NCBI RefSeq assembly: GCF_004310335.1
Contig: NZ_SIRS01000004.1
Span: 124,001 to 188,000, forward strand
DNA length: 64,000 nt
Reading direction: 5' to 3'
DNA from: Hyunsoonleella pacifica
GTDB lineage: Bacteria > Bacteroidota > Bacteroidia > Flavobacteriales > Flavobacteriaceae
How positions within the stretch are numbered: the first letter of the stretch is position 1; each line of letters opens with the position of its first letter. Of the stretch, positions 7,372 to 15,812 are shown one piece after another. A model generated the notes under the pieces. The model worked only from the letters and a program-made list of their open reading frames with translations. It did not search any database and was not told the DNA's origin. A program made the translations under genes and the position numbers.

Positions 7372-7914
7372 GTGAACAACGAAATTCAACTTGTAAAAGA
7401 GTTGCAATCGCAACAACATAAAGAGAAAGCCTTTAGAGAACTTATTTCTCTCTACAAGGAGCGCTTGTATTGGCATATCCGTAACATTGTTAAATCACAT
7501 GAGGATACTGATGATGTCTTGCAAAATACATTTATTAAAATTTATAAAAACATTAATAACTTTAAGGGAGATAGTAAATTATTTTCTTGGATGTATCGCA
7601 TTGCTACTAATGAATCTATAACGCTGCTAAATAAAAATGCTAAACGTTTACAGATTACCAGTGAAGAAGTACAACAGTTAGCTATTAACAACCTAACCTC
7701 TGATGTTTATTTTGAAGGAGATGCTATTCAATTAAAGCTTCAAAAAGCTATAGCAACTCTACCCGAAAAACAGCAATTGGTATTTAATATGAAGTATTTT
7801 GAAAATTTAAAATATAAAGAAATATCAGACATCCTAGAAACTAGTGAAGGCGCCCTAAAAGCATCTTACCATATTGCAGTAAAAAAAATTGAAGTATACT
7901 TAACTGATAATTAA
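7372..7914 (+). CDS. ECF RNA polymerase sigma factor (first of two in the window)
   Basis: The 180-aa protein has sigma region 2 (HIRNIVKSHEDTDDVLQNTF with the core-binding DDVLQ) and region 4 (LPEKQQLVFNMKYFENLKYK then an HTH around EISDILETSEGALKASYHIA). It lacks regions 1 and 3, as in ECF factors. It starts at GTG; no ATG is available nearby in frame. It is followed by a single-pass membrane protein (7959) and a secreted helical protein (8477), an arrangement common in Flavobacteriia in which the downstream genes are thought to hold or sense for the sigma factor. Confidence 0.93.
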   Translation: MNNEIQLVKELQSQQHKEKAFRELISLYKERLYWHIRNIVKSHEDTDDVLQNTFIKIYKNINNFKGDSKLFSWMYRIATNESITLLNKNAKRLQITSEEVQQLAINNLTSDVYFEGDAIQLKLQKAIATLPEKQQLVFNMKYFENLKYKEISDILETSEGALKASYHIAVKKIEVYLTDN

Positions 7915-7958
7915 ACCTTTTTACGAATTATGCGTCTAAATAAATGAATGCTTAAATA

Positions 7959-8465
7959 ATGAAAAACAAAAACTTACATAGCACAAAGACTACTGGTTTT
8001 AAAACTCCAGAGGGTTATTTTGATGATTTAGATGAAAAATTACTACAATACATTAAAAGTGATGACCTTTCTGTTGATAAAATTCCATCAGGTTTTAAAG
8101 TACCAGAGCATTATTTTGAAGGAATTGAAGATAATATCATTACAGCCGTTTCAAAAGAAAAAGACACCAAAGTAATACCTTTATTCAGCAAAAAGAATAT
8201 TCGTTATGTTTCTAGTATTGCTGCTTCGGTATTATTATTGATTAGTTTATTTATATTTAATAACAAACCTGAATTTGACGATCTAGAAACACAAACCGTT
8301 GAAAATTATATTATTGATGCCAATATTAGTTCTTATGAAATAGCCTCTTTATTATCCGAAGATGATATTAATGAACACACATTTATCACAAATGATATTG
8401 AAGATGAAACTATAGAGGCTTATCTTTTAGACACAGGCGACTTTGAAAGTTTAATGATTGAATAA
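7959..8465 (+). CDS. Single-pass membrane protein, probable partner of the ECF sigma factor
   Basis: The 168-aa protein has a soluble N-terminal part of about 85 residues with two related motifs (FKTPEGYFDDLDEKL and FKVPEHYFEGIEDNI), then one membrane helix (YVSSIAASVLLLISLFIF), then a very acidic C-terminal part. The N-terminal domain would be cytoplasmic and the acidic tail periplasmic. This layout and the position right after the sigma gene suggest an anti-sigma or sigma-anchoring role. No zinc-type anti-sigma HxxxCxxC motif is present, so that function is only inferred. Confidence 0.7.
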   Translation: MKNKNLHSTKTTGFKTPEGYFDDLDEKLLQYIKSDDLSVDKIPSGFKVPEHYFEGIEDNIITAVSKEKDTKVIPLFSKKNIRYVSSIAASVLLLISLFIFNNKPEFDDLETQTVENYIIDANISSYEIASLLSEDDINEHTFITNDIEDETIEAYLLDTGDFESLMIE

Positions 8466-8476
8466 AATTTTAAAAA

Positions 8477-8920
8477 ATGAAACAATTAACTACTATAATA
8501 CTTGTGCTATTTTGTACTCTTAGCACCTATGCGCAACCAAGACATAGCGAGCGTATTAAATCTTTAAAAATTGCTTTTATTACGGATCAGTTAAATTTAA
8601 CTACAGAAGAAGCTCAAAAATTTTGGCCTGTTTACAATGATTTTGAGGAAAAGACGTCTAAAATTAGATTTGAAAAAATAAGAAGTATAAGAAATAATAT
8701 TCGTAATAATTATGACTCACTTACTGACGAAGAGGCGAAAGCTTTAATTAAAAAAATGAGCGCTGCAGAAAACAAATTACATGAATTACGCAATACATAT
8801 CACGCTAAAATCATGGATATTATTCCTGCCAAAAAAATTATCAAACTAAAAATAGCTGAAGAAGATTTTAAGAAAAAAATGTTAAAAGAATTGAGAAATA
8901 GACGAAAAGAGAAGCCTTAA
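8477..8920 (+). CDS. Secreted helical protein ('sensor of ECF-type sigma factor' type)
   Basis: A signal peptide (MKQLTTIILVLFCTLSTYAQ) precedes about 125 residues predicted to be alpha-helical, with the motif LNLTTEEAQKFWPVYNDFEEK typical of the flavobacterial periplasmic proteins annotated as sensors of ECF sigma factors and distantly like Spy/CpxP. Its highly basic C-terminus (KELRNRRKEKP) ends at a bidirectional terminator. It lies 11 nt after the membrane protein gene, so the three genes form one operon. The ligand or stress sensed is unknown. Confidence 0.75.
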   Translation: MKQLTTIILVLFCTLSTYAQPRHSERIKSLKIAFITDQLNLTTEEAQKFWPVYNDFEEKTSKIRFEKIRSIRNNIRNNYDSLTDEEAKALIKKMSAAENKLHELRNTYHAKIMDIIPAKKIIKLKIAEEDFKKKMLKELRNRRKEKP

Positions 8921-10059: not shown

Positions 10060-10728
10060 TCATCCTTCTTTTTTCAGTGCTTTAATATCTTCAATTAATT
10101 GTTGTACAGCTGTTTTATTTAAACCATTATAAATACCCCGGATGTGTCTTCGCTTATCAATCAAAACGAAGTTTTCGGTATGTAAAAAATCGTCCTTAGT
10201 TTTTAGCTTACCCAAATCTTCTTCCACAAAATAAGCTTGCCTTCCTAAATCATATATTAAAGAGCGTTCTCCTGTTACCAAATGCCATTTATCACTATCT
10301 ACTTGTTTATCCTCTGCATAAGCTTTTAATACAGAAACAGAATCTGTTTCTGGTGTAACCGTATGTGATAACAATAACACAGAATCATCTGTTAAAAATT
10401 CGTCTTGCAGTACCTTCATATTTGCTGTCATTTTAGGACAAATACCTGGACATGTTGTAAAAAAGAAATCTGCTATGTAAATTTTATCTTTAAATGTATT
10501 TTGTGTAACAATTTTCCCCTCTTGATTCACTAATTCAAAATCTGAAATTTTATGAAATGTATTCAGTTTTTCATCTTCAACATTAAACCAATGTGGCGTA
10601 AATGTTGCCTCGTTGTAAAAAGGTAAAGTAGTCACCCTGCCTTGTTTTTCCTCAATATTTTTACACGAGAAAGACAATACAAAAAGTACAATAGTATAAA
10701 ATATATATTTACATGTTAATCTTTTCAT
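10060..10728 (-). CDS. SCO family (SCO1/SenC) lipoprotein, cassette 1
   Basis: A lipoprotein signal (TIVLFVLSFSC, Cys22) is followed by a thioredoxin fold with CPGIC (Cys93 and Cys97) and the distal His in LHTENFVLID, the three copper ligands of SCO proteins. SCO proteins bring copper to, or reduce, the CuA site of cytochrome oxidases; they can also serve as general periplasmic thiol/copper proteins. The cbb3 oxidase in this window has no CuA site, so this copy probably serves another target. It overlaps the upstream MORN gene by 20 nt. A close paralogue lies at 15832. Confidence 0.9.
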   Translation of the reverse strand: MKRLTCKYIFYTIVLFVLSFSCKNIEEKQGRVTTLPFYNEATFTPHWFNVEDEKLNTFHKISDFELVNQEGKIVTQNTFKDKIYIADFFFTTCPGICPKMTANMKVLQDEFLTDDSVLLLSHTVTPETDSVSVLKAYAEDKQVDSDKWHLVTGERSLIYDLGRQAYFVEEDLGKLKTKDDFLHTENFVLIDKRRHIRGIYNGLNKTAVQQLIEDIKALKKEG

Positions 10729-11269
10729 CCTCTAATTCATAACACAATTTTGCTTTTCTTAAACCAAAAGTTCTACCATTTTTAGCTTCGTAATTAATAT
10801 AAATTTCTCCGTTTTTTAACCAAGCTTGCTGTAAGCCTTCTTCTTGACCTTTATTATAATGTGTCTTTCTTGCTATTTGCCCTGTAGAAAACCACCTTTT
10901 TTGTTCTCCTTGCTTCAGTCCATTTACAAATTGTGATTCGGATGCTAAAACCCCATTATCCCACCAAACTTTCATTGTATCGTCCAAACGATTTTCATTA
11001 TAATTAGATTCCTTTTGAAGTTTTCCATTAGCAAACCATTTTTGCGCCTTACCTTGTTTAGCTCCATCAATATAACCAATACGTTCAGCTATATTTCCAT
11101 TGGTATGAAAACTCACAGCATATCCATTAAATAGCTCATTTTCATGAAACCATCTACCAAGATTGGGCTTTAGGATAACTTCTTGTTTATTGACTTCTAT
11201 ATTTGCTACAGTTCTAGTAGAATTTTTATGTTTTGCACATCCAAAAACACAGCATAATATAAAACACAA
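10709..11269 (-). CDS. MORN-repeat lipoprotein (YwqK-like), cassette 1
   Basis: The protein carries at least four MORN/YwqK-type repeats (GYAVSFHTNGNIAERIGYID, GKAQKWFANGKLQKESNYN, DTMKVWWDNGVLASESQF, GEQKRWFSTGQIARKTHYN), which form an extended beta-sheet. 'YwqK antitoxin' is a database label, not a demonstrated role. The start is uncertain: TTG at 11269 gives a short lipoprotein signal (CFILCCVFGC); an ATG at 11350 would overlap the YHYH gene by 74 nt. The tight packing between the YHYH and SCO genes is repeated in cassette 2. Confidence 0.78.
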   Translation of the reverse strand: MCFILCCVFGCAKHKNSTRTVANIEVNKQEVILKPNLGRWFHENELFNGYAVSFHTNGNIAERIGYIDGAKQGKAQKWFANGKLQKESNYNENRLDDTMKVWWDNGVLASESQFVNGLKQGEQKRWFSTGQIARKTHYNKGQEEGLQQAWLKNGEIYINYEAKNGRTFGLRKAKLCYELEDEKINM

Positions 11270-11276
11270 ACAAAAC

Positions 11277-12053
11277 CTAGTTGATGCTACTTGGAGTGCC
11301 TTGATAATCTCCTGGAAAAATAATATAGTATTGATTAAGGTATAGTTCATTCTCGATATGATAATGGTATTCTACAATATCAGTAGTATGCTGAGTAACT
11401 GATGTGTGTCCGCCAGAAGCATCCAAATCGGTTGGATATGTTCCAGTAGAATTACATTTTCTTCCATAAATAAAAAATCCATCAGCCAATATACCTACTA
11501 ACTTTTCGTCATCATTTGTCCAAGCTTTTGGTTCTAAATGATAATGGTAAGCTTGCGGACCAATATGCCCACCTGTATAATCCAAACTAGCAGCTGCCTG
11601 ATTTAACGGTCCGTTACCTTCTTGATCATTATAAATTGCTGCACCACTTACAGCTATCCCTATAGCCCCTAAACGTGTAGCTGTAGAGGTACTCGCCAAT
11701 TGAGGATTTTGGGATACCATTAATGTTGCTGATGCATCATATCCTGGAATTCTACTTGGCGTAAGTTGCACGTTAGGCTCATCCATATAAAGCGCATTAC
11801 CTTCTCCCCAATAGACGGTTTCATGGTTAGGCAAACCTGTAGTTTCTATAACTACATTAGAGCCACTTAAATAAACATCTGTTTCATCTTTATCGAACTC
11901 AGCAAATGCTGGATGTAGTTCTCCTGTAGTTTCTTCTTCCATCTCTGTATCTTGAGAAGTACTATCATCACTATTGCCACAAGCTATAAAAGCAAATACA
12001 AAAAGTAAAGAAATACTTAAAAGGGTAAAAGATGGCTTTAATACATTTTTCAT
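11277..12053 (-). CDS. YHYH-domain lipoprotein, cassette 1
   Basis: A lipoprotein signal ending LLFVFAFIACG is followed by an acidic linker and a YHYH domain, with two literal YHYH motifs (AYHYHLEP and EYHYHIEN), GPLNQ, and ILADGFFIYGRK. The tyrosine/histidine clusters suggest a metal site, but no biochemical function is established for the family. CGNSDD after the signal resembles the acidic lipoprotein export signal of Flavobacteriia, so it may face outward. It is followed closely by the MORN and SCO genes. Paralogue at 17093. Confidence 0.88.
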   Translation of the reverse strand: MKNVLKPSFTLLSISLLFVFAFIACGNSDDSTSQDTEMEEETTGELHPAFAEFDKDETDVYLSGSNVVIETTGLPNHETVYWGEGNALYMDEPNVQLTPSRIPGYDASATLMVSQNPQLASTSTATRLGAIGIAVSGAAIYNDQEGNGPLNQAAASLDYTGGHIGPQAYHYHLEPKAWTNDDEKLVGILADGFFIYGRKCNSTGTYPTDLDASGGHTSVTQHTTDIVEYHYHIENELYLNQYYIIFPGDYQGTPSSIN

Positions 12054-12060
12054 ACTATTT

Positions 12061-12159
12061 TTATTTACAACAAACGCAAATCATTACGATGTTAAGAGTT
12101 ATCACTATTAGAACAATTGCTATTAGTAGATATATTAGTTTGTTCTGGTTAAGTTTCAT
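12061..12159 (-). CDS. Possible 32-residue single-pass membrane peptide
   Basis: An ATG at 12159 opens 32 codons: a short polar start (MKLNQNK), one long hydrophobic helix (LIYLLIAIVLIVITLNIVMI) and the cysteine-rich end CVCCK. The stop lies 7 nt before the YHYH start. It begins 23 nt after the -10 element of an ECF-type promoter, so it would be the first translated gene of cassette 1. The CxCC tail could bind metal at the membrane face. No homologue is known to me, and cassette 2 lacks an obvious counterpart, so it may be chance. Confidence 0.4.
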   Translation of the reverse strand: MKLNQNKLIYLLIAIVLIVITLNIVMICVCCK

Positions 12160-12181: not shown

Positions 12182-12212
12182 TTTAGATGCATGTTTTAAA
12201 GAAAACTTGTGC
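12182..12212 (-). promoter_or_regulatory. ECF promoter, site 4 (before cassette 1)
   Basis: The minus strand reads GCACAAGTTT, then 13 nt after the AAGTTT block CATCTAAA (12182-12189). Sequence and spacing are the same as at sites 1-3 (15723, 15025, 14075). Confidence 0.6.
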
Positions 12213-12220
12213 TTTTAATA

Positions 12221-12259
12221 AAAAAGACTTCATAATTAGTATTTATATGAAGCCTTTTT
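12221..12259 (-). terminator. Terminator of the CotH gene
   Basis: AAAAAGACTTCATA pairs with TATGAAGCCTTTTT with one mismatch; on the minus strand it ends in a T run, 20 nt after the CotH stop. It separates the CotH transcript from cassette 1. Confidence 0.7.
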
Positions 12260-12279
12260 CTACCAATCAACCAAACAAA

Positions 12280-13728
12280 TTATTTGTTTAAATAACTATT
12301 CACTGCTGTTGTGCGAGATGATACGTGACTCTTCAATTCATTAACTGCTACTTGAAAATCTGCACTTGTATTTAAAAAGGTATATCCTGAGACTTCTGAT
12401 GTAGCATATTGCTCAATTAATGCAGTATACGAATCGTAAAGCGCTTGTATGCTACTCACTTTAAACGGACCATCAATTACTTCTTGTAAATAGGTGTCAT
12501 ATTTAGCTTTGTATACTTCATCTTGATACATGTACCCAATTAATGGCCATTCAGACGCTGAAATATCAGAAAAATCCAAACTGGGAGATCCCCCACGTTT
12601 CCCTTCTTGTAATGCTTCATTATTATCCCAGGGAATCCAAGTTAATTTATTAGTATCTGAATTATTATATAGATAATAATTATGTGTCATACGTCCATAA
12701 GTATCCCAGTTTTGAATAACTGTATTTACTGCCAAATATTTTAAAAATACATCTGTATCAAAAACAGTCTCTAGATTATTTCTCCATGTAACAGCATCAG
12801 TAGTTCTTAAATTATCATTTATGGCAGTTAGCAATGCTTGTACATCTGAAAAATCAGCTTCATCTTCATTAGTTTTCTTTTCATATTCATCTTCATTATA
12901 AGTGCCCACTGCAAAACTGGCTGCATCTCCATCTGGTTTATATAAATTACCATCATCATCAGAGAATTGTGTATCTAAAACACTTCCATCAACTTCTTCA
13001 ACTAACGTATACAATCCAAAATACTCAGGGCCGTTACCATGATCTACATAAAGTGTATAAAACGCAGTATGGGAGCCTACTAACCCAGCATTTCTAAATA
13101 CATCTCCTGCAACTTTTTCTCGTAGCATAGATTTGTCATCATAATTATTTTTGAGACTAAACTTTTTAAAACCATAAAAACGTTGGTTATCTATTTGAGG
13201 ATAATCATCCTCAAACTCATCAAAATCTAGTTTAAATGACAGCTTTAAAATCCCGTTTCGCCAACTAGATTGTAAACTGGAATTCCCTTTAAATCTTACG
13301 CCTACACGATACCATTGTTTACCATTATAAAACACTTCGGCTGGCACAAAAATTGGGTCTTCATCGGTTTCGATTAAACCGCCACCTGGACCACCGCCAC
13401 CAGACCCAAAACTACCGTACATAGCCGTCATATCATCCAACATACTTTGCCAACGGGTTTCTGTAATTACTATATCTAGCCTTTTTACTGTGTTATCCTC
13501 AAACACTTCATCAAAATTAGGATCTATATCTTTAGTATGTGTTTCTGTAGTCCAATCTGTAGCTTCAAAATCTGTATCATCTACAACTACCTCAACGTCT
13601 TCCTCTTCCCCTTCTTCCAAGATTTCTTCTGTATTAGAATCATCATTGCTACATCCTATTAGTGCAACTAAAATCAATATTAACAAAGAGGTCTTTATTG
13701 TTACCTTAAATATATTTATCTTATTCAT
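12280..13728 (-). CDS. CotH-kinase family lipoprotein
   Basis: A lipoprotein signal (ILILVALIGC) is followed by a strongly acidic stretch (SNDDSNTEEILEEGEEEDVE), typical of exported flavobacterial lipoproteins, then a CotH kinase domain: VRFKGNSSLQ, KKFSLKNNYDDKSMLREK, EYFGLYTLVEEVDG and LTWIPWDNNEAL. CotH proteins are atypical kinases; the Bacillus CotH phosphorylates spore-coat proteins, and other members occur on bacterial surfaces or modify secreted proteins. The glycine-rich insert FGSGGGGPGGG lies before the domain. It follows the EF-hand gene by 20 nt; Ca-binding partner and kinase may act together, which is inference. Confidence 0.9.
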   Translation of the reverse strand: MNKINIFKVTIKTSLLILILVALIGCSNDDSNTEEILEEGEEEDVEVVVDDTDFEATDWTTETHTKDIDPNFDEVFEDNTVKRLDIVITETRWQSMLDDMTAMYGSFGSGGGGPGGGLIETDEDPIFVPAEVFYNGKQWYRVGVRFKGNSSLQSSWRNGILKLSFKLDFDEFEDDYPQIDNQRFYGFKKFSLKNNYDDKSMLREKVAGDVFRNAGLVGSHTAFYTLYVDHGNGPEYFGLYTLVEEVDGSVLDTQFSDDDGNLYKPDGDAASFAVGTYNEDEYEKKTNEDEADFSDVQALLTAINDNLRTTDAVTWRNNLETVFDTDVFLKYLAVNTVIQNWDTYGRMTHNYYLYNNSDTNKLTWIPWDNNEALQEGKRGGSPSLDFSDISASEWPLIGYMYQDEVYKAKYDTYLQEVIDGPFKVSSIQALYDSYTALIEQYATSEVSGYTFLNTSADFQVAVNELKSHVSSRTTAVNSYLNK

Positions 13729-13748
13729 ACCTTCAATTTTTTAAAATT

Positions 13749-14048
13749 TTAATCTCTTTCTTTCCCATCTTTTCTACGTTTTGGTTTTGGGGCTTTCTTT
13801 AATTCTTCTTCAGTAATAAAACCATCTTCATTAGCATCAACTTCATCAAAATGTTCTTTTAAAGGACCTTTTATTTCCTTCTTTGATAATTTTCCATCTT
13901 CATTAGCATCCATTTTTTCTAATAACTGTTTGAAAGTTGGCGGCTCTCTTCTTTTTTGTTTATCATCAGATTGCCCAAAAGCGTTATTTGTCATAAACAG
14001 GGCGATAGCTACAATCAATAATGCCATTCTAAATTTGTCTCGTTTCAT
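13749..14048 (-). CDS. Secreted EF-hand protein
   Basis: A signal peptide (ALLIVAIALFMTNNAFGQ) precedes two canonical EF-hand loops, DANEDGKLSKKE and DANEDGFITEEE, with all the calcium-ligating positions present, separated by KGPLKEHFDEV. The C-terminus is very basic (KAPKPKRRKDGKERD). At 99 aa it is a minimal Ca-binding module for the periplasm or outside. It starts the EF-hand/CotH transcript, 27 nt after ECF promoter site 3. Confidence 0.9.
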   Translation of the reverse strand: MKRDKFRMALLIVAIALFMTNNAFGQSDDKQKRREPPTFKQLLEKMDANEDGKLSKKEIKGPLKEHFDEVDANEDGFITEEELKKAPKPKRRKDGKERD

Positions 14049-14074
14049 TGGTTTAAATTTTATCGTTATATATT

Positions 14075-14104
14075 TTTAGATGTGTTCATGATTCTAAACT
14101 TGTG
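14075..14104 (-). promoter_or_regulatory. ECF promoter, site 3 (before EF-hand/CotH)
   Basis: Minus strand CACAAGTTT, N13, CATCTAAA (14075-14082). Its distance to the EF-hand ATG (27 nt) suits a short leader. Confidence 0.6.
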
Positions 14105-14134
14105 GCTGCTAATGTTAAAAAAAGCATAAATAAA

Positions 14135-14164
14135 AAAGACGCTCTGGAATTGAGCGTCTTTATT
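14135..14164 (-). terminator. Terminator after the Spy-like gene
   Basis: AAGACGCTC and GAGCGTCTT form a perfect stem with a seven-base loop; on the minus strand it ends in TTTTTT. It closes the sigma / membrane / Spy-like transcript before the EF-hand promoter. Confidence 0.85.
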
Positions 14165-14177
14165 CTTTTTTAAACAA

Positions 14178-14693
14178 TTAATGTTCTGGTAGATGAGGAG
14201 GTCTGTGTTCTGGTCTAGGGGGTCGGTCTCTATGAGGTGGACCTTTTTCTCTAAATCCCCCTCTTAATGCATCTTGGAGTATTTTACCAAATCTTTCTTT
14301 TTGCTCAACACTACACAGTTCTTGAACTTCTTTAAAGTGCCGAAACACTTCTAAATCTTTTAAAGTCTCCATATCTCCAATTAAAACAGCAATAGAATCT
14401 ACATCTTTATCTACCATTGAGGTATCTGAGAAGCCACTAAACAATTTATCTTTTAATGTCCTAATTTCATCTGATATTCCTTTCATCTTTTGTCTATGCT
14501 TATGGGTTAAAGCTCTAAACGCTTGCTTTTGTTTATCATCAAAACCAAGTTCGTTTATCAAAAAATCAGCTGGAGGCTTGTGTTTCTGTACTTTTTGTTC
14601 TGTTTCACTACTACCTAAATAGTTGTAGAGAAAAAACCCATTTACAATAATAAGGAAGAGAAGTAAAATATATAAGGGTAAATTTTTCTTCAT
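14178..14693 (-). CDS. Membrane-anchored Spy/CpxP-like periplasmic protein
   Basis: One N-terminal membrane helix (LYILLLFLIIVNGFFLYNYL) is followed by a helical domain with LGFDDKQKQAFRALTHKHRQKMKGI, similar to the Spy/CpxP/ZraP group of periplasmic chaperones and metal sensors, and ends in a tail of P, R, H and E (HRDRPPRPEHRPPHLPEH). The histidine-rich tail could bind copper, zinc or nickel. It is third in the sigma operon, a place often held by a stress-sensing protein that works on the sigma/anti-sigma pair; metal sensing is inferred. Confidence 0.75.
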   Translation of the reverse strand: MKKNLPLYILLLFLIIVNGFFLYNYLGSSETEQKVQKHKPPADFLINELGFDDKQKQAFRALTHKHRQKMKGISDEIRTLKDKLFSGFSDTSMVDKDVDSIAVLIGDMETLKDLEVFRHFKEVQELCSVEQKERFGKILQDALRGGFREKGPPHRDRPPRPEHRPPHLPEH

Positions 14694-14695
14694 AA

Positions 14696-15016
14696 TTAAT
14701 TATTTAAAATTGAAGTACTTGTATCGTTAGTAGATAACCCATAAGACTCAGCAAACTCGCTAACATTTTCTTCATAAGTTGATGTTTCTTGTAATCTCGT
14801 AAATGCCATTACATTTAAAACTACAACGCAAACTAAAGTAGCCAACTGCAATTTAGGTGTAAACCAAGACCAAGCGATGTGTTCCTCCTTCTTTTCAGCA
14901 AATAAAACATGCATCGTTTTATCTTTAAAAAAGGGAGATACATTAACCGTTTCAGTATTATCCAAAATGTTTAAAGTCTCGTCAATTTTCTGTTGTAGGT
15001 TCTTATTGCTTTCCAT
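14696..15016 (-). CDS. Single-pass membrane protein, probable anti-sigma partner
   Basis: The 106-aa protein has a cytoplasmic-type N-terminal half (LQQKIDETLNILDNTETVNVSPFFKDK), one membrane helix (LQLATLVCVVVLNVMAF) and a short acidic/Thr-Ser-rich periplasmic tail. It sits between the sigma gene (38 nt) and the Spy-like gene (2 nt). The position and topology fit a small anti-sigma factor, although no known anti-sigma domain can be named. Size and layout are similar to the partner at 7959 but shorter. Confidence 0.68.
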   Translation of the reverse strand: MESNKNLQQKIDETLNILDNTETVNVSPFFKDKTMHVLFAEKKEEHIAWSWFTPKLQLATLVCVVVLNVMAFTRLQETSTYEENVSEFAESYGLSTNDTSTSILNN

Positions 15017-15024
15017 ATCAAATA

Positions 15025-15054
15025 TTTAGATGCATTAAGTTTTAAAAACTTGCG
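15025..15054 (-). promoter_or_regulatory. ECF promoter-like site 2 (between sigma and membrane partner)
   Basis: Minus strand CGCAAGTTT, N13, CATCTAAA (15025-15032), directly after the sigma stop codon. The -10 lies only 9 nt before the ATG at 15016, so a transcript would be nearly leaderless; this makes the site less secure than the others. Confidence 0.4.
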
Positions 15055-15633
15055 TTAATTATTGTTTTTATAAAAATTTTCTAAAAGCTTCTGTAAATTC
15101 TTTTTTGCCCTGAACATCAACGACTCCACTGAAGACAAACTTTTCCCCACAATATCACTAATCTCTTGATAGCTTTTTCCATCTACTTTATGCAAAGTAA
15201 AAACCACTTTTTGAATCTCTGGTAATTGGTTAATTGCATAAAATAGCGTCTCACTTTTTTCCTTATTTTCTAAAATAATCCCTGGATGGTTCATTTCCGT
15301 AAAATAACTGCTTTTATCTATAGGAATTTCATTTCCTAAAATCGATTGCATAAATCCAAAACGCTTTTTGGTGTTACGCTTTCTAATAAATTCCAAACAT
15401 TTATTGGTAGTTATCCGATAAATCCATGTGGACAATTTAGAATTTCCTTTAAATTTACTAATAGAATTAAATATTTCCACAAAAACCTCTTGTGCAATAT
15501 CCTCAGCATCCTCCTTGTTTGGAATAAACGAAATACATGTAGCAAATACCTTTTGCTGAAAATCATCCAACAACTTCCCATACGCATTGGCGTTATGGTT
15601 CCGTAATCCTGCTATAAACTCGTTTTCCGTCAA
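15055..15633 (-). CDS. ECF RNA polymerase sigma factor (second of two)
   Basis: Region 2 (CISFIPNKEDAEDIAQEVFV, then FKGNSKLSTWIYRITTNKCL for -10 reading) and region 4 (LPEIQKVVFTLHKVDGKSYQ then the HTH EISDIVGKSLSSVESLMFRA) are both clear; 192 aa is normal for ECF factors. It heads a minus-strand operon with a membrane partner and a Spy-like protein. A CAAGTTT-N13-CATCTAAA promoter lies upstream and the same motif precedes the EF-hand/CotH genes and cassette 1, so this factor most likely drives itself and its neighbours. Confidence 0.95.
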   Translation of the reverse strand: MTENEFIAGLRNHNANAYGKLLDDFQQKVFATCISFIPNKEDAEDIAQEVFVEIFNSISKFKGNSKLSTWIYRITTNKCLEFIRKRNTKKRFGFMQSILGNEIPIDKSSYFTEMNHPGIILENKEKSETLFYAINQLPEIQKVVFTLHKVDGKSYQEISDIVGKSLSSVESLMFRAKKNLQKLLENFYKNNN

Positions 15634-15688
15634 ATACCTAATTCAAATTACATTACCAATTCTATACTAATGATAATTTTTATCGATA

Positions 15689-15709
15689 CATCAAAGCTAA
15701 GCTTTGATG
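15689..15709 (-). other. Hairpin in the leader of the second sigma gene
   Basis: CATCAAAGC and GCTTTGATG pair perfectly around a 3-nt loop, between the predicted promoter (15723) and the ATG (15633). No T run follows, so it is not a standard terminator; it may stabilise or control the mRNA. Confidence 0.45.
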
Positions 15710-15722
15710 AAAGCTTTTTCAG

Positions 15723-15753
15723 TTTAGATGCTTAAAAAAAATAAAACTTGTGC
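15723..15753 (-). promoter_or_regulatory. ECF promoter, site 1 (before the second sigma gene)
   Basis: Minus strand GCACAAGTTT, N13 after AAGTTT, CATCTAAA (15723-15730). It predicts an mRNA leader of roughly 80 nt and autoregulation of the sigma gene. Confidence 0.6.
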
Positions 15754-15780: not shown

Positions 15781-15812
15781 AAAAGCTTCGAGAATACTCC
15801 CGAAGCTTTTTA
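15781..15812 (-). terminator. Terminator after YHYH-MORN-SCO cassette 2
   Basis: AAAAGCTTCG and CGAAGCTTTT form a 10-bp stem. It shares its core with the terminator after cassette 1 (10006), which supports duplication of the whole unit. Confidence 0.65.

Follow-up and report, generated by a model that had tools for sequence, protein, structure and literature searches.

A candidate ECF sigma factor regulon with a private, deeply conserved promoter motif in Hyunsoonleella pacifica

Introduction

Among the membrane switches that govern an extracytoplasmic function (ECF) sigma factor, the closest described relative of the locus discussed here is CnrYXH, the cobalt/nickel switch of Cupriavidus metallidurans, for which CnrH-dependent promoters are reported before cnrY (cnrYp) and cnrC (cnrCp), together with an RpoD promoter, in the sections of PMC9045368 that deal with them. 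CnrY is classed as a class II anti-sigma factor, and 6% of the ECF sigma factors of Bacteroidetes are said to neighbour a class I anti-sigma factor, both according to the corresponding sections of PMC7406223. Here, we describe a stretch of 64,000 nucleotides from Hyunsoonleella pacifica (Flavobacteriaceae; contig NZ_SIRS01000004.1, positions 124,001 to 188,000; hereafter the window), in which one promoter-like motif precedes an ECF sigma factor gene, a gene pair for a putative anti-sigma factor and a putative sensor, and two sets of neighbouring genes. Together these form a candidate ECF regulon, private to its locus and deeply conserved, which most likely works in the manner of CnrYXH, with different cargo and with an internal promoter, itself conserved, that serves inhibitor and sensor.

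A motif confined to one locus of the genome

The window holds exactly four copies of the motif, CAAGTTT-N13-CATCTAAA, on the minus strand only (core matches by pattern search at 12182-12209, 14075-14102, 15025-15052 and 15723-15750), and none of 100 dinucleotide-shuffled windows holds any. An earlier reading of this DNA, made from its letters without database searches (the sequence-only reading), had claimed four minus-strand sites with a fixed gap of 13 nt between AAGTTT and CATCTAAA, the first 5' of the sigma gene, the second between it and its membrane partner, the third 5' of an EF-hand/CotH pair and the fourth 5' of a 32-codon open reading frame (ORF) and a YHYH-MORN-SCO gene set, cassette 1; all four are at the positions it gave and before the genes it named. 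The features concerned, all on the minus strand, are the following.

15723..15752, minus strand: site 1, CACAAGTTT-N13-CATCTAAA, its core motif 89 nt 5' of the sigma start codon
15055..15633, minus strand: ECF sigma factor gene, 192 aa, TTG start, Pfam Sigma70_r2 and r4_2
15025..15054, minus strand: site 2, CGCAAGTTT-N13-CATCTAAA, running from the first base after the sigma stop codon onward
14696..15016, minus strand: putative anti-sigma factor, 106 aa, one hydrophobic segment, no Pfam match
14178..14693, minus strand: putative periplasmic sensor, 171 aa, LTXXQ/Metal_resist superfamily, CnrX-like predicted fold
14135..14161, minus strand: terminator-like hairpin 3' of the sensor gene, found in the sequence
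14075..14104, minus strand: site 3, CACAAGTTT-N13-CATCTAAA, found by pattern search
13749..14048, minus strand: EF-hand protein, 99 aa, signal-like N terminus
12280..13728, minus strand: CotH kinase family protein, 482 aa, lipoprotein-like N terminus
12182..12211, minus strand: site 4, CACAAGTTT-N13-CATCTAAA, found by pattern search
12061..12159, minus strand: 32-codon ORF, one membrane segment by eye
11277..12053, minus strand: YHYH protein, 258 aa, lipoprotein-like (cassette 1)
10709..11350, minus strand: MORN_2 repeat protein (cassette 1)
10060..10728, minus strand: SCO1/SenC protein with a CPGICP stretch (cassette 1)
15781..15810, minus strand: terminator-like hairpin between cassette 2 and site 1

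The genome-wide search that had been proposed as a check finds the motif to be anything but frequent: the four window sites are its sole exact copies across 4,127,878 bases, in which the reversed pattern has no match. The lone genome site with one mismatch (contig C12) is embedded in an ORF of 944 aa that runs on the opposite strand. With up to three mismatches allowed, the 540 matches equal background (510 for the reversed control), so that the relaxed search adds no members to the regulon. For single sites we used a score over 17 positions at a spacer of 13, one -10 position being A or T, with at least 14 counted as a pass. In the rest of the window, scanned with spacers of 12-14, no other place reaches 15/17 and three score 14, none of them 5' of cassette 2 or the sulfatase gene. 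Neither cassette 2 (likewise YHYH-MORN-SCO) nor the sulfatase gene, both upstream of site 1, has a site of its own, as had been claimed; this holds for the window genome, while among relatives a sulfatase-like gene does have a site in locus L043, of the same genus, and in L122. An Rfam scan of the window at gathering thresholds gave no match.

Promoter character across related loci

In 80 related loci (the best 80 of 394 relatives, 1.62 Mb in all) the exact motif is found 211 times with a spacer of 13, twice with 12 and three times with 14, and never with spacers of 8-11 or 15-19. All 211 exact spacer-13 sites lie on the sigma strand and none on the opposite one, at least one exact site is present in 74 of the 80 loci, and the reversed-pattern control has no match. 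CG or CA stands immediately 5' of 220 of the 230 CAAGTTT-N13-CATCTAA sites in these loci, and the refined motif is CRCAAGTTT-N13-CATCTAAA. Most exact sites, site 2 excepted, end 21-35 nt 5' of a start codon, with peaks at 26 nt for the cluster of EF-hand and YHYH proteins and at 24-31 nt for the sigma gene. This preferred distance from genes, with the rarity and conservation of the motif, supports the claim that the ECF sigma factor reads it and controls its own locus along with exported genes.

The same sites bear on a quite different explanation, that the motif is the operator of a transcription factor and the sigma gene a mere neighbour. In the window the spacer of site 2 holds an inverted repeat (AAGTTTTTAAAACTT), as some operators do, and two sites in the family face away from sigma; but that repeat is not conserved across the site classes, the exact sites of the 80 loci share one direction and a nearly fixed spacer, and the motif halves fit the geometry of ECF promoters, namely an AAGTTT-type -35 and a TCTAAA -10 about 15 nt apart. 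Moreover, the motif follows the sigma factor across genomes, as set out below, and no transcription-factor gene is common to the loci in a neighbourhood map in which some ORF families were unscanned. We consider an operator of this kind very improbable. A two-way operator was set aside on the evidence of strand and spacer, with two facing exceptions (G239 and G227).

The motif travels with the sigma factor

A comparison with related species had also been proposed, and the motif is kept in those relatives that have the sigma gene. Within the genus, it is present in five of 12 genomes, the same five that hold a sigma ortholog (at least 91% identity); the other seven are without one, G003 and G009 having only a paralogue of 32-33% identity. 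For the family, we counted as orthologs the sigma matches at E 1.4e-78 or better, found in 35 genomes, and as non-orthologous five weaker matches at E 5.8e-42 to 2.8e-32 (G087, G297, G133, G144, G020). The motif occurs in 36 of 299 family genomes, comprising 30 of the 35 with an ortholog versus 6 of the 264 others (Fisher p 3.6e-30), and its reversed control has five matches in the same 299. Of the 93 family sites, 75 lie within 7.5 kb of sigma (at most 7.4 kb away), 12 elsewhere in sigma-bearing genomes and six in genomes without sigma, where all six fall inside ORFs of at least 421 aa, on either strand. A site stands near sigma in 29 of the 30 motif-bearing genomes of the ortholog set, and 73 of the 75 near-sigma sites are on the sigma strand.

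Beyond the family, a pattern scan of 345 genomes of the phylum matched only the window and two others. In G751, a genome assigned to the same phylum, the sigma gene is directly followed by a site, behind which come genes for a protein of 99 aa, for a Metal_resist protein and for one of MauG type; in G732 the site lies inside a called ORF or just before its first ATG, and no sigma gene was recognised in the 3 kb read around it.

Some observations weigh against a strict bond between motif and sigma factor. Exact sites are missing from five of the 35 ortholog-bearing genomes (G097 aside, the other four, G258, G217, G198 and G221, have site 2 at 14-16/17) and from six of the 80 loci, which hold near versions only; in G093, one of the 30, the exact site is confined to a contig other than that of sigma; and exact near-sigma sites in G239 and G227 face the other way. 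Weighing these against the counts above, we regard a link between this sigma factor and this motif as highly probable. What the sequence itself shows is the motif, a distribution private to this locus, an almost fixed strand and spacer, co-occurrence with the sigma gene and placement before these genes, together with the predicted fold of the sensor.

The two outward-facing sites (G239 contig 3:49811 and G227 contig 27:93413) lie just 5' of sigma in an arrangement like that of divergent promoters. The locus was read for five of the 12 sites that lie away from sigma in sigma-bearing family genomes. Copies remote from the sigma locus include one in L043 (G002 contig 15), 24 nt 5' of a gene like the window's sulfatase, and one in L058 (G239 contig 2), 194 nt 5' of a VTC-like gene, both genes assigned by eye.

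A universal site after the sigma gene and an optional one before it

The sequence-only reading had called site 2 the weakest of the four, and the related loci reverse that ranking: site 2 scores at least 14/17 in 80 of 80, and site 1 in 42, beyond which L174 and L175 carry a 16/17 site 1 with a spacer of 12. Site 2 also passes in all 34 ortholog loci taken from the searches of genus and family (four from the genus and 30 from the 35 family genomes, the window's own included, some strains recurring among the 80), where 17 of 1700 control windows reach 14, and in none of five paralogous sigma loci. Among distant loci of the class, taken as the best 19 of 38 matches outside the window genome and with sigma factors 40-55% identical, it reaches 14 in 10 and 12 in 13, as against none and 30, respectively, of 950 control windows; the nine distant relatives below 14/17 are a further point against a motif that is kept without exception.

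Counted from the last base of the sigma stop codon, the core motif of site 2 starts three positions on in 67 of 73 relaxed copies, so that the refined motif begins at the base right after the stop. The end of the site is 8-10 nt from the next ATG in 41 of the 73 (8 nt in the window), the remaining gaps ranging from an overlap (-12) to 198 nt, some through misassigned start codons, and four copies having no called gene; at 8-10 nt from its ATG, the anti-sigma message may be leaderless or nearly so. That the sigma factor drives its own gene, another early claim, would apply to this locus and to the 42 with a site 1, as an option and not a rule, whereas the site before the anti-sigma/sensor pair is universal. 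From this it would follow that the built-in feedback is mainly negative and self-amplification optional. The contrast poses a question of design, namely why all 80 loci keep the site that precedes inhibitor and sensor when only 42 keep the one for the activator.

Two side observations concern the region 5' of sigma. In the window, the sigma leader carries an insert at 15640-15722 with a hairpin, CATCAAAGCTTAGCTTTGATG; similar inserts stand at the same place in L112, L117 and L126 and are absent in L113 and L116, a distribution as expected of a small repeat element, for which Rfam has no match. In the distant relative L220 (G611), a 16/17 site lies 5' of sigma with none of at least 15 elsewhere in 12 kb, and a sulfatase with a type IX secretion system (T9SS) sorting tail is encoded a few genes downstream.

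The membrane partner and the sensor

The sigma gene itself scores above the cut-off of TIGR02937 (NCBIfam) and belongs to the ECF superfamily. The family of the 106-aa protein encoded after it is present, by ORF clustering, in 76 of 81 loci, and that of the sensor in all 81. An anti-sigma role is proposed for the 106-aa partner because of its position, size and membrane segment, its length and single hydrophobic segment fitting a short anti-sigma factor of the CnrY type. Against it, PDB searches link its sequence neither to CnrY nor to any other solved anti-sigma factor. Pfam and NCBIfam scans find no domain in it, nor an ASDI domain, for which these scans were general and no dedicated model was used.

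The sensor has a predicted N-terminal membrane helix at residues 5-29, and among 60 members of its family LTXXQ is matched in 44 and Metal_resist in 35 at E <=0.1. Its structural model (predicted local distance difference test, pLDDT, 86) resembles CnrX in fold: in a Foldseek comparison with the PDB, CnrX structures come first (probability 1.00, target template-modelling score 0.80, E 4.5e-3), above CpxP and Spy. Conserved in the 60 members are H66 (58), M70 (54), H119 (44) and C127 (49), with H66 and H119 present in all eight of a hand-picked class-wide set (the window and seven of the 19 distant loci). Two points count against the likeness to CnrX: the Foldseek E-values are weak, none being at or below 0.001, and the nearest solved protein by sequence profile is Spy, not CnrX (E 2.9e-4 and 1.2e-8). 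By sequence position, H66, M70 and H119 are candidates for counterparts of the metal ligands of CnrX. On balance, it is quite likely, to judge from position, size and modelled fold, that the 106-aa protein inhibits and the CnrX-like protein senses.

What would be sensed is a separate matter, for the same promoter system could respond to envelope or periplasmic protein stress, as Spy and CpxP do, rather than to a metal. The profile matches to Spy, the rank of LTXXQ as the commonest Pfam match of the sensor and the exported look of most cargo would all suit such a signal; set against them are the higher rank of CnrX over CpxP and Spy by predicted fold, the near-invariant His and Met positions, and the copper-family cargo of distant relatives described below. 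We see stress as a fair possibility, though less likely than not.

The genes behind the sites

The output of the system was surveyed at 125 cargo sites in 81 loci, taking the first called gene within 400 nt and telling EF-hand and YHYH proteins, which form one linked cluster, apart by length and the YHYH string. That gene encodes a YHYH protein at 56 sites, a short EF-hand-type protein at 32, CotH at 15, VTC at three and Cthe_2159 at three; at seven it is a longer protein of the EF-hand/YHYH cluster that lacks the YHYH string; a sulfatase, BNR, Lcl_C and another gene appear once each, and no gene is called at five. By locus, YHYH is held by 77 of the 81, SCO by 63, MORN by 59, CotH by 44 and VTC by six. 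An N-terminal hydrophobic segment, called with a threshold of our own setting, is found in 119 of 123 first cargo ORFs versus 205 of 594 background ORFs. Eight other loci have ORFs comparable to the 32-codon one, 29-52 codons long, each with a single membrane segment (by eye) and a start 19-34 nt downstream of a site; they were drawn from 28 sites whose first long ORF lies more than 60 nt off.

An alignment of 45 YHYH sequences, which apart from the window cassettes were picked for the YHYH string, has 30 invariant columns, six of them histidine, one of its two YHYH blocks being invariant by that selection. The predicted structure of the YHYH protein has a pLDDT of 58.8, and a profile search of the PDB gave only matches of E 0.15 or worse.

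Six of seven distant loci outside the family, L222 being the one left out, were inspected for neighbours, and in four of them YHYH adjoins the sigma unit (L217 and L219 with confirmation by Pfam, L218 and L223 by resemblance). A second site is present in L217, L218 and L223, and behind it stand a YHYH-type gene and two more genes; in L217 and L218 these two match MbnP and a di-haem peroxidase in Pfam; L219 has YHYH and a di-haem peroxidase, also by Pfam. The L217 pair matches the MbnP and MbnH families of NCBIfam. SCO1, encoded in cassette 1 here, is a protein that handles copper. The combination of site and YHYH gene with MbnP-like and MbnH/MauG-like genes in distant relatives suggests copper. 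MbnP and MbnH are discussed in relation to copper homeostasis in the relevant part of PMC3621798, which adds there that in 2013 data connecting close MbnP homologues with copper were lacking, and CorA is described as a copper-binding protein in the corresponding part of PMC3912023. Less favourable to copper are the scores of the MbnP and MbnH matches, which are below the curated cut-offs of NCBIfam (and above those of Pfam for MbnP and CCP_MauG), and the EF-hand, CotH, VTC and sulfatase cargo, which does not point to this metal. As signal or substrate, copper is the best-supported candidate, with a probability that we would put a little short of even. The sequence-only reading had called the exported proteins possibly metal-linked; the predicted fold of the sensor and the copper-family genes of distant relatives speak for this, while the signal itself is something we infer.

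The cargo could instead serve a surface programme for calcium or for phosphate/polyphosphate, in which EF-hand, CotH and VTC/DUF4956 proteins are the real output and SCO1 and YHYH accessory. The 32 EF-hand-type, 15 CotH and three VTC first genes and the 44 loci with CotH fit such a programme, but YHYH-string genes are first at more sites, YHYH and SCO are held by more loci, and the distant loci in which YHYH adjoins the sigma unit show neither CotH nor VTC, most ORFs there being unscanned. We judge this programme unlikely.

In the open-licence literature, no paper was found that joins YHYH with CotH and SCO, or YHYH with Flavobacteri, or that combines at least four of ECF, CotH, sigma factor, Bacteroidetes and EF-hand, and the matches listed include no account of the present system of sigma factor, sites and cargo.

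The flanks of the island

The cargo between two flanks varies from locus to locus, as in an island. On one side, at window 7372-8920 on the plus strand, lie a second ECF sigma gene and two genes without a Pfam match, the family of the last being present in 51 of 81 loci; the other side is bordered by a gene that we take to be RsmB-like, present in 75 of 81.

Proposed mechanism

We propose, with good confidence, a CnrYXH-like transmembrane switch in which a private promoter code controls neighbouring genes for exported proteins; that the sigma factor reads the motif and that the two small proteins inhibit and sense is what we infer from the sequence and the model. At rest, the ECF sigma factor would be tethered to the membrane by the short one-helix protein (14696-15016), its release being controlled by the CnrX-like protein (14178-14693). 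The signal would most likely be a metal ion and, by the cargo, most likely copper. Once freed, the sigma factor would read CRCAAGTTT-N13-CATCTAAA and transcribe four units, namely itself (unit 1), the anti-sigma factor and sensor (unit 2), the EF-hand and CotH proteins (unit 3) and the membrane microprotein with YHYH, MORN and SCO1 (unit 4). Activation would yield more inhibitor and sensor, hence a feedback that is mainly negative.

More tentatively, the locus may represent an ancient ECF system of Bacteroidota that responds to copper or another periplasmic metal and is older than the split of families, perhaps of classes; its promoter would sit flush with the sigma stop codon, the message for its anti-sigma brake would be near-leaderless, and YHYH, a family for which no assigned function came to light, would be its core output, handling copper at the surface with SCO1 or with MbnP/MbnH. 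A private code also has a practical use: with a single pattern the candidate regulon of a genome can be named, so that function becomes testable for YHYH proteins, CotH lipoproteins and small membrane ORFs, families with little or no known role.

Comparison with known systems

Three described kinds of ECF control share features with this locus. One is the RpoE/SigW type, since the nearest PDB entries to the sigma factor itself are RpoE-type sigma-E and SigW, with CnrH also matched (E 2e-7); the present locus differs in that the partner is short and without a Pfam or NCBIfam domain, and its neighbour is CnrX-like. The FecI-type control of methanobactin genes by MbnI/MbnR likewise places an ECF sigma system near MbnP/MbnH genes, as the pertinent part of PMC3621798 describes. 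The FecI type, however, uses a FecR-like partner and a TonB receptor, and the scanned neighbours of sigma in the window include neither a FecR-like anti-sigma factor nor a TonB-dependent receptor.

With CnrYXH the locus has in common an ECF sigma factor, a short membrane protein and a sensor of CnrX fold encoded together, and sigma-dependent promoters (predicted sites in the present case) before the system's own regulators and its output genes. It differs in gene order, which here is sigma, partner, sensor, in the promoter-like site between sigma and partner, and in cargo, which comprises YHYH, SCO1, EF-hand, CotH and other proteins; no efflux pump, such as the CnrCBA pump of CnrYXH, is among the scanned genes of the island. 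Taken together, what the sequence and the modelled fold suggest is that the system is most likely of the known ECF/CnrYXH-like kind, distinguished by its cargo and by a conserved internal promoter.

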